Below are positions 2 through 50,971 of a stretch of 64,000 nt of DNA, in pieces (the stretch's first letter is position 1; every line of letters begins with the position of its first letter). This DNA is from Pseudorhodoferax aquiterrae (GTDB taxonomy: Bacteria > Pseudomonadota > Gammaproteobacteria > Burkholderiales > Burkholderiaceae_C), in NCBI RefSeq assembly GCF_014652235.1, contig NZ_BMYK01000003.1, positions 248,001 through 312,000 on the forward strand, written 5' to 3'. Below the pieces are notes generated by a model. The model ran no database searches, was not told the DNA's origin, and saw nothing but the letters and a program-made list of their open reading frames with translations. A program made the translations under genes and the position numbers.

Positions 2-547
2 TTTCCGCGGCCCGATTACCGCATGTACGAGTCGCACCCGGTCGTGAACTCGCTGATCCTGTACCACATCGGCCACGGCGACGTGGGCGTGCGCCCCGAC
101 ATCGCGCGCCTCGAGGGCCACACCGTGCACTTCAAGGACGGCAGCGCACGCGACTACGACCTGGTCCTGGCCGCCACCGGCTACAAGCTGCACTACCCCT
201 TCCTGGACCACGCGCTGCTGAACTGGCAGGGCATGGCGCCGCGCCTGTACCTGAACATCTTCGCGCCGCGCTTCGACCGGCTGGCCGTGCTGGGCATGGT
301 GGAGGCCAGCGGCCTGGGCTGGCAGGGCCGCTACGAGCAGGCCGAGCTGGTGGCGCGCTATTTCAAGGCACTGGACGACGGCAGCCCGCAAGCCGGCGCG
401 CTGCGGTCGGCCAAGGATGCGGATCCGGCCGCCTGGCCCGACCTGTCGGGCGGCTACCGCTACCTGAAGCTCGAACGCATGGCGTACTACGTGCACAAGG
501 ACACCTACCGCAAGGCGGTGCGCGCGGCCGCCGCGGCCTTCCACTGA
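2..547 (+). CDS. Flavin-containing monooxygenase / NAD(P)-FAD oxidoreductase, C-terminal part (5' truncated by window edge)
   Basis: The frame is open from base 2, with no start codon before the edge, so only the last ~181 residues are seen. The stretch LAATGYKLHYPFLD is the ATG(Y) motif that closes the NAD(P)-binding region in flavin monooxygenases and related FAD oxidoreductases. The rest is the C-terminal cap that packs against the flavin. Such enzymes insert one oxygen atom into a carbonyl, N or S substrate using NADPH; the substrate here cannot be read from the tail. The gene ends 8 bases before a BASS transporter on the same strand, suggesting one transcript. It is a different protein from the 610-residue monooxygenase at 4551-6383. 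Confidence 0.8.
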   Translation, partial: FPRPDYRMYESHPVVNSLILYHIGHGDVGVRPDIARLEGHTVHFKDGSARDYDLVLAATGYKLHYPFLDHALLNWQGMAPRLYLNIFAPRFDRLAVLGMVEASGLGWQGRYEQAELVARYFKALDDGSPQAGALRSAKDADPAAWPDLSGGYRYLKLERMAYYVHKDTYRKAVRAAAAAFH

Positions 548-28032: not shown

Positions 28033-28127
28033 CGCACAGTGCTCACAGCAACCAACGTGCCATGTACTGCGCGAACGATCGTAGCCATGGCCGCCACGCC
28101 GGGCATCTGACTTCCAGTTCGCACGCG

Positions 28128-47285: not shown

Positions 47286-48263
47286 ATGCAGACTGCCCCC
47301 CGCCGACTGCTGCTGTCCACCGCCCTGCTCGCCCTCGTGGCCAGCAGCCTGCCCGCCAAGGCGCAGCCGGCGGCCTGGCCGAGCAAGCCGGTCCGCATCG
47401 TCGTCACCTTCCCGCCGGGGGGGGCGCCGGACACGTTGGCGCGCCTCCTGGCCGACAAGTGGAGCGCGCTGGGCCAGCCCGTGACGGTGGACAACAAGCC
47501 GGGCGCCGGCGGCAACATCGGTGCCGACACAGTGGCCAAGAGCCCGGCCGACGGGGCCACCCTGGTGCTGGGTACGGTGGGGACGCACGCGATCAACGCC
47601 GCGCTGTACGACAAGATGCCGTACAACAACCTCAAGGACTTCACGCCGATCAGCTTCCTGGCCAGTACGCCCAACCTGCTGGTGGTCAACAAGGCCGTGC
47701 CAGCCAACAACGTGCAGGAGCTGGTGGCGCTGGCCAAGCGCGAGCCACTGGCCTTCGGCTCGTCGGGCAGCGGTACCTCGATCCACCTGTCGGGGGAGCT
47801 GTTCAACACGCTGGCCGGCGTGAAGATGCAGCATGTGCCGTACAAAGGGCGCGCTCAGGCGATCCCGGACCTGCTGGGCGGACGCATCGCGATGATTTTC
47901 GACAACATGCCGTCGGCGCTGCCGCTCGTGAAGTCCGGCGAACTCAAGGCCCTGGGGGTGACCAGCGCGCAGCGCTCCCCTGCCGCGCCGGACATCCCGA
48001 CCATCGCCGAGGCCGGCCTGCCCGGATTCGAGGCCACCTCCTGGTTCGCGCTGCTCGGGCCGGCCGGGATGCCGCGCGAGGTTCAGTTGCGCATCAACCA
48101 GGAAGTCGCGCGTGTGCTGGCGCTGCCCGATGTGAGGGAGAAGCTCGCCACGCTGGGCCTGGAGCCGAACCCCGGCACCCCCGAAGCCCTGATGTCGCTC
48201 ATGCAGAGCGAGACCGCCAAGTGGGCCAAGGTGGTCAAGGCGTCCGGCGCGAAGCCCGACTGA
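47286..48263 (+). CDS. Second Bug-family tripartite tricarboxylate binding protein
   Basis: A 325-residue secreted binding protein. Signal peptide ends PAKA-QP (about residue 28). Bug signatures are present: PVRIVVTFPPGGAPDTLARL and, near the end, LGPAGMPREVQLRIN. ATG at 47286 is preceded by AAGGAGA. It stands alone, with no TTT membrane gene near it, as is usual for the many Bug genes of betaproteobacteria. It differs clearly from the Bug protein at 36235-37200. The stop (TGA 48261-48263) lies 3 bases before a TACAAT box that may start a small RNA. Confidence 0.92.
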   Translation: MQTAPRRLLLSTALLALVASSLPAKAQPAAWPSKPVRIVVTFPPGGAPDTLARLLADKWSALGQPVTVDNKPGAGGNIGADTVAKSPADGATLVLGTVGTHAINAALYDKMPYNNLKDFTPISFLASTPNLLVVNKAVPANNVQELVALAKREPLAFGSSGSGTSIHLSGELFNTLAGVKMQHVPYKGRAQAIPDLLGGRIAMIFDNMPSALPLVKSGELKALGVTSAQRSPAAPDIPTIAEAGLPGFEATSWFALLGPAGMPREVQLRINQEVARVLALPDVREKLATLGLEPNPGTPEALMSLMQSETAKWAKVVKASGAKPD

Positions 48264-48277
48264 GCTACAATCGGGGG

Positions 48278-48483
48278 CTCACTGGTTCTGCAACCAGTGA
48301 AATCGCCTGGCCAGGCAACGCCGAATCTCACGGCGGCACGTCGACAAGATCGCTCACGACGAAAAACGCAGAGTGGTCCTGCATGCGAAAGTGCCGTAAA
48401 CGTGGACCGCGTAAGAGTCCACGACCAAATTCTTGAAGTCCCGCTGCAACGCCAGTCTGTGTTTTGCCACGACTGGCGTTTTG
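48278..48483 (+). ncRNA. Candidate structured small RNA (or leader)
   Basis: Just after the Bug stop there is a -10-like TACAAT (48266-48271). Downstream are three hairpins: CACTGGTT-CTGC-AACCAGTG (48280-48299, perfect 8-bp), CGTGGAC...GTCCACG (about 48400-48423, perfect 7-bp) and AACGCCAGTC...GACTGGCGTT (48448-48480, perfect 10-bp, followed by TTTTGC). The spacing and the last stem with a short T-run look like a ~205-base transcript ending in a weak terminator. No known family was recognised, and no good -35 was found. Confidence 0.4.
48383..48436 (+). other. Very small basic ORF inside the candidate RNA (17 codons)
   Basis: ATG to TGA encodes MRKCRKRGPRKSPRPNS, with eight basic residues of 17 and three prolines. 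No strong ribosome site is seen (GTGG lies 9-12 bases upstream). It could be chance, or a leader or small-protein ORF inside the hairpin-rich RNA. The middle hairpin at ~48400-48423 covers most of it, so reading it would disturb the RNA fold. Confidence 0.2.
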
Positions 48484-48527
48484 CATGGTGCGCATGCCCC
48501 GTGGCCCCGGCCCGTGTCCTCGCACGC

Positions 48528-48553
48528 AAAAAAGCCCCGCTCACGCAGGGCTT
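48528..48553 (-). terminator. Intrinsic terminator on the minus strand
   Basis: On the minus strand AAGCCCTGC-GTGA-GCGGGGCTT makes a 9-bp stem (one T-G pair) with a GNRA-type tetraloop, followed by TTTT. It lies 25 bases past the stop of the small gene at 48579-48758, so it supports that gene as being expressed leftward. Confidence 0.7.
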
Positions 48554-48578
48554 GGAAAGATGGCGGCCGCAACCCGGC

Positions 48579-48758
48579 TCAGGTTGGCAGCCCCTTGGTG
48601 GCATGCCGTTTGTGGTCTTCGGCGCCGGCGCGGACCGGCACCGATTTGCTCGGCACATATGGAACGGTCATTGCGCTGTTCACATGGGTTCTGGGCTCGA
48701 CGGCCGCCGATGCAGGCGGTGCGGGCTTGGAACTGTCGCTCCTGGTCTGGTCGCTCAT
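48579..48758 (-). CDS. Small hypothetical protein (59 residues)
   Basis: Not recognised. The 59-residue product starts MSDQTRSDSSKP and its C-terminal half is polar and basic (VPYVPSKSVPVRAGAED, then HKRHATKGLP). It has no membrane or signal segment. There is no clear ribosome site before the ATG at 48758. The strongest support is the good minus-strand terminator 25 bases after its stop. It lies in the AT-richer stretch between the Bug gene and the tRNA, and may be lineage-specific. Confidence 0.45.
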   Translation of the reverse strand: MSDQTRSDSSKPAPPASAAVEPRTHVNSAMTVPYVPSKSVPVRAGAEDHKRHATKGLPT

Positions 48759-49233
48759 GCTTGAAGAATCCGGTTGGTCATCAGGTCCGCAGGCGTGCTG
48801 TCCACGCGTCAGGTGCACCTCGGCGTTGCACAGCCCGAGGCCAACGCATCTCGACGCAACATTCGCGCCATGCGGATGACTGCAATGAAATCAACACGGA
48901 ACTTGCCGCGCCGATCGCGCGGCGGCCCAGCTTGTAAAAAGGACCGACAGAACGTCCAATTCGCGTCACGCACGGGGGCAATTCGCCTGGACGCCGACCT
49001 CTGACCAGAAAAGCCACGATTCCCCTCATGTAGCGCTTGGGGCCTCCCATCTCAAGCCCAGCAACAGCACCACCAACGACACCAAATCAAGGCCGCATCG
49101 CGACCATCCATGTGTCCAGTCTTGTAGGACATGGCCGATGACGACCCACGTTACAGGGAGCCCGGGAATACCCTAGGTACTCTCGCAAGTGCTTGAATCT
49201 TAAAGGCGGCACAGTGCTTGCTTGGAGTTCATG
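48759..49233. other. 475-base gap with no supported gene
   Basis: No convincing coding region was seen; the frames here are short or have poor codon use. The last part holds the likely promoter and leader of the small membrane gene at 49234, including the short palindrome TACC-CTA-GGTA (about 49169-49179). Base composition is clearly less GC-rich than in the flanking core genes. Confidence 0.5.
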
Positions 49234-49467
49234 ATGACTCCCATTCAGTTGATGAAGCGTCTCTTGATTGCCATTGCATCGCTGCTTGCTGTGTCAGCGG
49301 CGTTCGCATTGGGCGCATACCCCGACCTTCCCTCCGTTCAAGCCCTGCCCGGCGCAGCGGTTTCGTGGGCGACGTCCACGTTCAGTGGCGACCACAGCGG
49401 CATGTGGGAAGTGGCGGCGGCGATCGCCGTGATGGCTGTGATTGCCAAGCGCAACGGCAAGACATGA
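49234..49467 (+). CDS. Small membrane protein, first copy of a paralogous pair
   Basis: A 77-residue protein, not recognised. Predicted helices: a N-terminal one (about residues 6-28, LMKRLLIAIASLLAVSAAFA, which may be a signal peptide or anchor) and a C-terminal one (about 56-72, MWEVAAAIAVMAVIAKRNGK), with a Pro/Gly/Ser-rich middle. GGAG lies 6 bases before the ATG at 49234. It shares the layout and the C-terminal motif W-x-V-A-A-x-I-A-x-x-(V/L)-I-A-x-R with the protein at 50137-50337, so the two are probably duplicates that diverged. Confidence 0.6.
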   Translation: MTPIQLMKRLLIAIASLLAVSAAFALGAYPDLPSVQALPGAAVSWATSTFSGDHSGMWEVAAAIAVMAVIAKRNGKT

Positions 49468-49566
49468 TCCACCGGCGCGCCGCGCATGGCCGCGGTGCGC
49501 ATGCGACATGCAAAACATGTGCGGCATGTCACATTGGAAATACCGTCTCATGGTTACGCTCGCGCG

Positions 49567-49773
49567 ATGAAACAAATTCGCATTGCAAGCACGCGCGAAA
49601 TCGCGCAGAACGACCAAGGCCAACGTTTCGTCTGCGAGTGGATGGAAGGCTCGCTGATGAACCGGTGGCTGCTGAAGAACCGACTGGCCGAAGCACTGGA
49701 GGTGCACGGCACGGGAAGCCACTGGGTTGAAGTCCGGGACGCGCACCCCGTGCGCCACACAGCACCGGCCTGA
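49567..49773 (+). CDS. Small hypothetical soluble protein
   Basis: A 68-residue protein, not recognised with certainty. It begins MKQIRIASTREIAQNDQG and has FVCEWMEGSLMNRWLLKNRLAEALEV and a C-terminal HWVEVRDAHPVRH. The pattern of hydrophobic and charged residues looks like a small folded alpha/beta protein and not like random frame translation. It sits between two membrane-protein copies and has a terminator about 75 bases downstream. The function is unknown. Confidence 0.55.
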   Translation: MKQIRIASTREIAQNDQGQRFVCEWMEGSLMNRWLLKNRLAEALEVHGTGSHWVEVRDAHPVRHTAPA

Positions 49774-49847
49774 CGTCGAAACAACGTCGCCGAGCGTTGC
49801 AGCCGGCAGAGTCGATCAGGCGCGGTGGTCGTGGTCTCGCGCCAACA

Positions 49848-49885
49848 AAAAGCCTCCCCGGTTCGAAGACCGGAGAGGCTTTGAA
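49848..49885 (+). terminator. Bidirectional-looking intrinsic terminator
   Basis: AAAGCCTC-C-CCGGT...ACCGG-A-GAGGCTTT forms a long stem with one C-A mismatch and a loop around TTCGAAG, followed by TTTGAATTTT. It lies about 75 bases after the 49567-49773 gene on the plus strand. The A-rich 5' side makes it work in both directions. Confidence 0.75.
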
Positions 49886-50136
49886 TTTTGCTGACGCGTC
49901 CCGCCGATAGCGCAAAACCAGCGTCCTGAGAGACGCAGTCCCACGGGTCGCGTTGGCCGGATGTGAACGCGACAAGTCAGGGGGCACGGCGCTGCCAATG
50001 AAACCGTGCGGAAAGTCGCCAACGGTTTGCATGAGTTCCTGCATCATGCCGCACCTCCGCGCCCCGTGCCGGCCAACTTCCCAGCGCATTGCAGGCAGCC
50101 GACGCTCGCCACCTGCGCAGTGCGCATCATCAAAAC
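49886..50136. other. 251-base intergenic stretch, nothing clear
   Basis: Between the terminator and the second small membrane protein no gene, tRNA or strong promoter was recognised. The latter half should hold the promoter of the 50137 gene, but no good -35/-10 pair was found by eye. Confidence 0.4.
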
Positions 50137-50337
50137 ATGCCAATGAAGCGCGCCCTGATCGCTCTCGTCTCGGTAGTGTCCGTCTCTGCCGTCGTGGCCT
50201 TCGGGCCCCGTTCCGACGTTCAACCATCCGCTCAGGAACCGCCGCTGCTGACTGCCAGTTGGTTTGCCGACGACGGCTGGGCGGTGGTCGCGGCGATCAT
50301 CGCAATGGTTTTGATCGCCAACAGAAGAAATCGTTGA
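50137..50337 (+). CDS. Small membrane protein, second copy of the pair
   Basis: A 66-residue protein, not recognised. A N-terminal hydrophobic segment (MPMKRALIALVSVVSVSAVVA) and a C-terminal helix (WAVVAAIIAMVLIANRRNR) are joined by a Pro/Ser/Gln-rich middle of ~20 residues. Size, layout and C-terminal motif match the protein at 49234-49467. ATG at 50137 is listed; a second ATG at 50143 also fits. No clear ribosome site. It could be a small stress-related or channel-like membrane protein, which is only a guess. Confidence 0.55.
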   Translation: MPMKRALIALVSVVSVSAVVAFGPRSDVQPSAQEPPLLTASWFADDGWAVVAAIIAMVLIANRRNR

Positions 50338-50473
50338 GTGTGCCTGTGGCTTGAACGGCCAGTAGTGGCCAAGAGACGCCACACCAGGGTTTGCACCCGT
50401 TCATCAATCCATCGATGGCGCGGAAGATCGCTGGTATCAATTAGTTTCAGATCTCAACGATTGAGACGCTTCC

Positions 50474-50605
50474 ATGACGCTCACCGCACTCATCGCCATC
50501 GCTTGCATTGCATGTCTTGCCCGCGGGGCATTGGCGGCCGGCCTCCGGCTGGAGCAAATCAGCAAGGAGCGCCAGGAAAACGCTGAGTTCCGCCAGGCGT
50601 CCTGA
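50474..50605 (+). CDS. Candidate 43-residue small membrane-helix protein
   Basis: A short frame not recognised: N-terminal hydrophobic helix (ALIAIACIACLARGALAAGL, two Cys) and a charged amphipathic tail (EQISKERQENAEFRQAS). A weak GAG ribosome-site match lies before the ATG at 50474. This is the third tiny membrane-type frame in the same stretch, which argues against chance, but the evidence is weak. Confidence 0.35.
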   Translation: MTLTALIAIACIACLARGALAAGLRLEQISKERQENAEFRQAS

Positions 50606-50853
50606 AGCCTCCGCGAAAGAAACCGTGGGCGCCACCCTCGCGGCCGCTGGAACCGTGCCAATCAACGAGAACGCCGCAACGGCCGCTGTCGGCGACGGCA
50701 ACAGGCTCTTCCACCCACTGCACGCCCGGATGCAGCGCCGTCAGTGGCACGGGCGGTAGCTGGAAGGCCTCCTCACCCGCTCAACCTGCACTGCAACAAA
50801 CGCAGTGCGGAAACCGGTGAAGTGCGCAGCCCACACCACACTCCGGAAAATAA
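50606..50853. other. 248-base stretch between the small frames and the tRNA terminator
   Basis: No convincing gene is seen. A GTG-started frame to 50759 (VGATLAAAGTVPINENAATAA, and so on) exists but lacks a ribosome site and conserved features, so it is not called. Confidence 0.4.
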
Positions 50854-50887
50854 AAAAGCCTTCGAAACCATTGATTTCGAAGGCTTT
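50854..50887 (-). terminator. Intrinsic terminator of the tRNA-Met transcript
   Basis: On the minus strand AAAGCCTTCGAAA-TCAATGG-TTTCGAAGGCTTTT forms a perfect 13-bp stem with a 7-base loop and ends in TTTTTTA. It begins 8 bases after the tRNA's CCA end, so it ends the tRNA transcript. Confidence 0.85.
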
Positions 50888-50894
50888 CGGATGT

Positions 50895-50971
50895 TGGTGG
50901 CGCTTCACGGATTCGAACCGCGGACCTGTGGATTATGATTCCATCGCTCTAACCGACTGAGCTAAAGCGCC
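50895..50971 (-). tRNA. tRNA-Met (anticodon CAT)
   Basis: A 77-base cloverleaf on the minus strand with encoded CCA. Acceptor GGCGCTT/AAGCGCC pairs perfectly; the D arm GCTC...GAGC, the T arm CGCGG-TTCGAAT-CCGTG and the anticodon loop ATCATAA (anticodon CAT) are in place. The anticodon stem has an A-C mismatch at 27-43. CAT could also serve Ile2 after lysidine modification, but the sequence resembles elongator tRNA-Met. A terminator follows. Confidence 0.95.

Follow-up and report, generated by a model that had tools for sequence, protein, structure and literature searches.

Five small genes and an RNA gene beside tRNA-Met

The 64-kb stretch of the Pseudorhodoferax aquiterrae genome analysed here (hereafter the window) contains, between a Bug-type gene ending at position 48263 and a tRNA-Met gene, an interval in which a first-pass annotation had noticed several tiny reading frames in a gene-poor, AT-richer island. 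All of these frames are present, and the G+C content (GC) is indeed lower, at about 58–64% in the interval vs about 62–74% in the flanks. The interval probably consists of two unrelated things, five small-protein genes and a free-standing structured RNA gene, a division that forms part of the overall explanation we favour. From left to right the order is structured RNA, D, A, C, B and E, with D alone on the minus strand. The protein genes, labelled A to E, are as follows.

48579–48758, minus strand: gene D, 59 amino acid residues (aa), no evident hydrophobic stretch (by eye)
49234–49467, plus strand: gene A, 77 aa, two hydrophobic helices (hydropathy)
49567–49773, plus strand: gene C, 68 aa, of a multicopy family with up to 6 full copies per genome
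50143–50337, plus strand: gene B, 64 aa, a paralogue of A; 66 aa if the start is at 50137
50474–50605, plus strand: gene E, 43 aa, one hydrophobic stretch and a charged tail (hydropathy), adjoining B in four genomes

The comparison was made between the genome that contains the window (G000, 7.1 Mb), its relatives (G001–G004 and others) and a series of loci designated by L-numbers. Since all five frames show protein-level conservation within the genus and the ratios of non-synonymous to synonymous substitution (dN/dS) fall between 0.03 and 0.39, comparative analysis confirms them as real, conserved protein-coding genes. The pairwise values (Nei–Gojobori method; five sequences per gene, four for E) were 0.05–0.20 for A, 0.12–0.32 for C, 0.03–0.18 for D, 0.08–0.28 for E and 0.14–0.39 for B, one pair of the latter being saturated. 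The pooled ratio of non-synonymous to synonymous proportions (pN/pS) was 0.19 for the frame at 49234, 0.40 for 50137, 0.25 for 49567, 0.12 for 48579 and 0.31 for 50474. The dN/dS check that the first-pass annotation had proposed, made here across genomes of the genus, gave values below 0.4, and homologues exist outside this strain. Among the six genomes of the genus, our own included, A and B are present in five, D in six and C in five as an orthologue and in all six as paralogues, while E was found in four; the D protein is 90–97% identical across four other species.

A and B are true paralogues, as had been supposed, with an expectation value (E-value) of 2.3e-5, 48% identity within the genome and 15 invariant columns in an alignment of nine sequences. 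The C-terminal helix motif ascribed to both is present, but is one residue longer than had been given; its form in the window is W-x-V-(A/V)-A-A-I-(A/I)-(V/A)-M-(A/V)-(V/L)-I-A-(K/N)-R. The 66-aa frame at 50137 is likewise real, but its conserved start is the ATG at 50143, giving 64 aa, and the ATG at 50137 is absent in three of five species. An intrinsic terminator had been placed downstream of both the 48579 and the 49567 frames. For D the terminator scan agrees (48532–48553, minus strand); for C the case is weaker, because the hairpin at 49851–49871 on the 3′ side of the gene is listed for the minus strand only and its T run on the plus strand is broken.

None of the five proteins has a Pfam, NCBIfam or PHROG family above cut-off or below an E-value of 0.06; a Pfam holin resemblance of B (E-value 0.43) is below the cut-off, and the C profile gave no match among solved structures. 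Structure models, each protein folded alone, were too weak for use (mean predicted local distance difference test score 61.5 for C and 66.6 for A). Profile searches covered 200 family genomes, of which three belong to the genus, with only about 30 candidates scored per genome, so that weak relatives may be missed. The A profile matched three genomes (two of the genus and one weak match inside a larger frame), the C profile four (three of the genus and G027 of another genus) and the D profile eight, namely three of the genus and five outside it with E-values of 0.0009–0.007, which we took as noise. The earlier impression of lineage-specific, undescribed small proteins agrees with this picture of no known family and near absence outside the genus. 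The open-licence literature that we searched yielded no description of the small proteins or of the RNA.

The structured RNA

The first element of the interval was overlooked by the first-pass annotation. Judging by its conservation and pairing pattern, the segment 48280–48482 is a conserved structured RNA gene, with the following parts.

48268–48273, plus strand: −10-like box TACAAT (TACAAT or TATAAT in the genus; TATAAT-like before other members, by eye)
48280–48482, plus strand: structured RNA gene, about 200 nt, with a presumed start
48451–48482, plus strand: intrinsic terminator, part of the RNA gene

The layout comprises a 5′ hairpin, small hairpins, an H-type pseudoknot, a hairpin with a CGCGUAAGA loop and the terminator. 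The 122-nt core (48305–48426) is 100% identical in four genomes of the genus and 97% in a fifth, and relatives outside the genus occur in nine of 200 family genomes with 75–85% identity over their length. A model built from 15 members recovered members at E-values ≤ 1e-15 in 24/299 family genomes (14 of 126 genera) and matches at ≤ 0.1 in 47/299; at the level of the order, three of 300 genomes matched, all in the window's own family. One genome of another genus (G027) has the RNA in four copies.

The predicted fold is supported by covariation. Both partners are changed in 12 of 28 pairs of a first, unfitted alignment, in which 95.9% of the cells pair; when 25 members were aligned to the model, compensatory changes appeared in 22 of 32 pairs and 97.2% of the cells were paired, this alignment being fitted to all helices except the first and the pseudoknot. 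In neither case did any of 500 shuffles score as high, and slid structures were only 29–50% paired. The pseudoknot helix CGUCG/CGACG, which lies outside the model, has compensatory changes at two of five pairs (L230; L207 and L233) and single breaks in L202 and L231. By eye, the members are preceded by a −10-like box and then show a 3′ hairpin with a T run, a hairpin that recurs in otherwise diverged copies. Searches against Rfam at threshold returned only tRNAs, in the window and in 13 homologous RNA loci, and no Rfam match overlapping the RNA appeared up to an E-value of 5. A new RNA family without Rfam match, within a common bacterial family, is well supported by these comparisons.

The genes next to the RNA differ between genera. 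A riboswitch was considered and rejected, as the downstream genes differ between genomes and the terminator follows immediately. The RNA would be a free-standing transcript of about 200 nt, equipped with a sigma-70-type −10 box and a terminator of its own, most likely acting in trans and probably binding a protein, with the 3′ hairpin as a recurring module. Stand-alone RNAs of the 6S RNA type have their own promoter and terminator, a strong fold and conserved unpaired loops, and the RNA described here appears to share all of these traits. No link between the RNA and PEP-CTERM genes emerged: a PEP-like tail, the mark of the protein-sorting system discussed below, was found at none of seven RNA loci of other genera.

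A diverged second copy (L205; contig C3 of our genome, 141020–141122, minus strand) keeps the 3′ hairpin and terminator and has a different 5′ part; weak matches resembling it were seen in G001–G004.

Promoters and links to PEP-CTERM genes

Many environmental bacteria have PEP-CTERM/exosortase systems, which sort cell-surface proteins and are important in the formation of exopolysaccharide and flocs; the regulation of exosortase sorting is, to our knowledge, poorly known. Upstream of D, A and C lie the following elements.

48933–48949, minus strand: 17-nt box of D, TGTCGGTCCTTTTTACA, 62 nt from the sigma-54 element
48855–48870, minus strand: sigma-54 element of D, TGGCGCGAATGTTGCG, 9–10/11 positions
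49123–49155, plus strand: upstream box of A, TGTAGGA-N5-CCGATGACG...TTACA, its last 17 nt resembling motif 1 (see below)
49207–49222, plus strand: sigma-54 element of A, CGGCACAGTGCTTGCT, GG-N10-GC, 10–11/11 positions
49518–49533, plus strand: CRP-like site of C, TGTGCGGCATGTCACA, centred at −41.5 relative to the ATG of C
49555–49560, plus strand: −10-like box TACGCT, 6 nt before the ATG of C

The promoter element of PEP-CTERM genes is described by Haft et al. 2006 (PMC1569441) as a 17-nt motif 1 with the 3′ end TTTACA followed by a sigma-54 motif 2, with a spacer of 62.8 nt (standard deviation, SD, 10.6) between them and 71 nt (SD 38.5) to the start; the matching regulators are PrsK, PrsR and PrsT. 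The D promoter fits this PEP-CTERM (Prs) element in all five orthologues: the 17-nt block TGTCGG-N5-TTTACA scores 11–12/12, the spacer is 62–63 nt and the sigma-54 element stands 96–117 nt before the ATG. When pairs were sought with motif 1 at least 10/12, motif 2 at least 9/11 and a spacer of 40–90 nt, no D-type pair occurred in a 320-kb control (20 stretches of contigs C1 and C3 of our own genome), and a pair with a spacer of 63 nt precedes the PEP-CTERM genes in L253 and L208. A looser pair (thresholds 8 and 9) occurs at six places in the window, D and A among them, and sigma-54-like sites alone are common, with 36 places of at least 9/11 in the window. A perfect 11/11 sigma-54 consensus, TGGCACGTTGGTTGCT, is located at window position 28062 on the minus strand.

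Both elements of A are present in 6/6 A genes, including a metagenomic homologue (L241) whose protein is 54% identical, and the sigma-54 element ends 10–11 nt before the ATG. Given that sigma-54 promoters usually start transcription some 12 nt past the GC, the mRNA of A would begin at the ATG or about one base before it. No convincing sigma-54 site was found upstream of B and E.

The C family reads as being controlled by class II promoters of the CRP type. A CRP-like site (at least 8/10 letters of TGTGA-N6-TCACA) centred 41.5–45.5 nt before the ATG was found in 14 of 24 distinct C-family genes, the window's included, the other ten lacking it; the chance expectation was a mean of 0.17 and a maximum of 3 in 2000 first-order Markov shuffles, although the 24 genes are not independent as orthologues are included. 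The site before C is the sole match of at least 9/10 positions in the window. TAnnnT was seen by eye 6–9 nt before the start in 20 of the 24 genes, and this promoter position suggests that the C mRNAs would be leaderless or nearly so.

The gene families of the interval show several links to PEP-CTERM genes, among them genes of the THxN family (NF038125). The upstream box of A recurs in three genomes (0, 1 and 0 mismatches) before a THxN PEP-CTERM gene, whose NF038125 E-value is 1.2e-70 for the G002 copy and 6.7e-70 for the G000 copy; G002 has one further match to the box. On its contig the metagenomic A has a 25-nt tRNA-Arg end on one side and, on the other, a gene sharing 92% identity with the gene next after THxN in G000; by this synteny it is placed in the chromosomal slot of the THxN gene. 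C genes occur at 21 other places, and the surroundings of 17 of these were examined. C is directly upstream of a THxN gene on the same strand in four genomes (L255, L267, L268, L269) and directly downstream of one in G004 (L260), and a PEP-CTERM gene lies about 3 kb away in L253 and about 1 kb away in L208. A PEP-CTERM gene is within a few kb of two CRP-type C copies (contig C6 of G004 and contig C132 of G001). B and E adjoin a THxN gene in G003 (E-value 2.8e-69), D adjoins both C and a PEP-CTERM gene in G004, and PEP-CTERM genes are present in G000 as well.

Interpretation and alternatives

We consider it probable that the five genes are a Pseudorhodoferax-specific accessory layer around the PEP-CTERM/exosortase system, standing beside a trans-acting RNA. 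D and A may be switched on by PrsK/PrsR and sigma-54, along with PEP-CTERM proteins, during exopolysaccharide production, and many C copies, including that of the window, may be transcribed into leaderless mRNAs under a CRP-type regulator. A and B would insert in the inner membrane by a secretion-signal-like helix and a C-terminal helix with a basic end; in this form they would correspond to the two ends of a PEP-CTERM protein, minus the PEP motif and the folded middle, and might modulate or escort the sorting machinery.

The interval resembles the PEP-CTERM/PrsK/PrsR–sigma-54 regulon, as described by Haft et al. 2006 (PMC1569441), in the 17-nt box, spacing and sigma-54 element of D, in the combination before A of a sigma-54 element with a box common to a PEP-CTERM gene, and in the adjacency of some C, B+E and D genes to PEP-CTERM genes in relatives. 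It differs from it in its products, which are 43–77 aa long and lack the PEP-CTERM signal. The THxN family, the genomic partner of some C genes, of B+E once and of the box of A (E-values 1e-72 to 8e-66), consists of proteins of about 261–271 aa with a middle part and a VPEP tail, and none of the five proteins matches NF038125. RpoN-dependent PEP-CTERM expression was shown experimentally in Aquincola tertiaricarbonis, where PepA has a mapped −24/−12 promoter (PMC9850573); unlike the window proteins, PepA belongs to the true PEP-CTERM proteins, and its floc phenotype is known. Small proteins in or beside a PEP-CTERM regulon are an obvious place to look for sorting control, and frames of 43–77 aa are easily skipped.

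A number of results weigh against the accessory-layer explanation. The box of A, as a pattern with one mismatch allowed, is rarer than its reversed control in 5/6 genomes, so that the evidential weight lies on the repeated place and not on the count. The motif-1-like part of this box scores only 8–10/12, and its spacer of 51–52 nt is short. The D gene of G004 has a weaker pair (9/12, spacer 52) and, among the seven D-family genes scored, a G001 paralogue has none; the letters of the motif-1 scan were D's own TGTCGG plus those in the text of Haft et al., not the published logo. The excess of PEP-CTERM genes near C is modest with the strict tail pattern (6/17 C loci vs 1/20 controls, p 0.026), and four of the six positive loci are orthologous or in the same orthologous place; the pattern misses L260, and the lone control match is not a PEP-CTERM protein by NCBIfam. 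Within 420 nt of the THxN genes in L255, L267, L268 and L269 there is no sigma-54-like site, and the THxN genes of L260 and L115 show promoter pairs that are only weak. A THxN gene was seen beside B+E in only one of five genomes and in none of the other four, and no PEP-CTERM-like tail was found in the 64-kb window itself. A and B carry the hydrophobic helix and basic end; they lack the PEP motif of PEP-CTERM proteins (TIGR02595/PF07589) and match no PEP-CTERM model, nor any other NCBIfam family, up to an E-value of 10. Finally, the two scored GTG-start C copies upstream of THxN genes lack both the CRP-like site and TAnnnT, so that the CRP-driven and the THxN-operon copies look like different subgroups. 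The idea that CRP ties the THxN operons to carbon status was rejected, as those C copies have no site.

Alternatively, the five could be independent orphan genes with unrelated functions, whose sigma-54-like and CRP-like sites belong to nitrogen or carbon responses, the nearness of PEP-CTERM genes in some loci being incidental. We regard this as possible, at a clearly lower level of confidence: 10 of the 17 C-paralogue loci are without a PEP-CTERM gene once spurious tails are set aside, and the failure of A and B to match PEP-CTERM models, the short spacer of A and the two C subgroups all suit it. Against it, the complete promoter of D fits in 5/5 orthologues, with the pair absent from the 320-kb control, and every one of the five families is linked at least once to a PEP-CTERM gene or element. 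A bolder version of the accessory layer seems to us rather doubtful. Here A and B, being only a secretion signal and a membrane tail that lack cleavage motif and cargo, would be 'empty' exosortase-pathway proteins occupying or gating the sorting enzyme, with A under PEP-CTERM sigma-54 control; C would be a small soluble THxN partner, encoded in THxN operons in some copies and on leaderless, CRP-driven mRNAs in others. If true, exosortase systems would have a layer of control not described before, next to a pseudoknotted RNA family, likewise undescribed, in the same family of bacteria. It is very unlikely that A and B are small toxins, holins or toxin–antitoxin membrane peptides. Their two hydrophobic helices and the very weak holin resemblance of B noted above would agree with such a role, in contrast to their vertical conservation under purifying selection and the promoter link of A to a PEP-CTERM gene.

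Equally unlikely is the acquired cassette at the tRNA that the first-pass annotation had suggested, for instance a phage or integrative-element remnant inserted by site-specific integration at tRNA-Met (50895–50971, minus strand), the right-hand neighbour outside the small-gene set. The lower GC and the adjacent tRNA are compatible with it, as is a C homologue on an IMG/VR contig beside tRNA-Arg. The last 14–25 nt of the tRNA-Met 3′ end, however, have no second copy anywhere in the 64-kb window, and a tRNA-targeted island was rejected on this ground. A+C adjoin the Bug gene in five of the six genomes although the right-hand neighbour varies: the enoyl-CoA hydratase gene beyond tRNA-Met adjoins the set in only three of the five genomes with A. 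B and E are linked to each other and lie on a different contig from A+C in G002 and G003; by gene order the small-gene set is thus at least two units, A+C and B+E. In G004, A, B and E were not found, and a C paralogue and D are about 250 nt apart. A phage or plasmid origin of C was also rejected, as 50,697 phage and 72,556 plasmid records contained nothing that matched the protein.

IMG/VR viral contigs gave one homologue each of C and A. The C relative adjoins an intact tRNA-Arg on the side away from tamB, and because of this position past the intact tRNA the C family may travel with a prophage. The copy of A is found on the far side of the 25-nt tRNA-Arg remnant, with an integrase-like frame before the remnant (by eye only). 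The two contigs (L240 and L241) come from one metagenome, and a probable prophage ends at tRNA-Arg(CCT) between tamB and A.

As to the flanking genes, the enoyl-CoA hydratase is 97% identical to its counterpart in Pseudorhodoferax sp. Leaf274, to which our genome is close; the Bug-type gene, so named by the first-pass annotation, has no NCBIfam match at an E-value of 1e-5. A C-gene fragment with a stop codon is found on contig C50 of G000 (371–460, minus strand), about 1.4 kb from an intact copy. A GDSL-type lipase/esterase-like gene, with an NCBIfam match below cut-off, adjoins C in L255 (8319–9317, minus strand) and, judged by eye, such a gene adjoins C also at L143.

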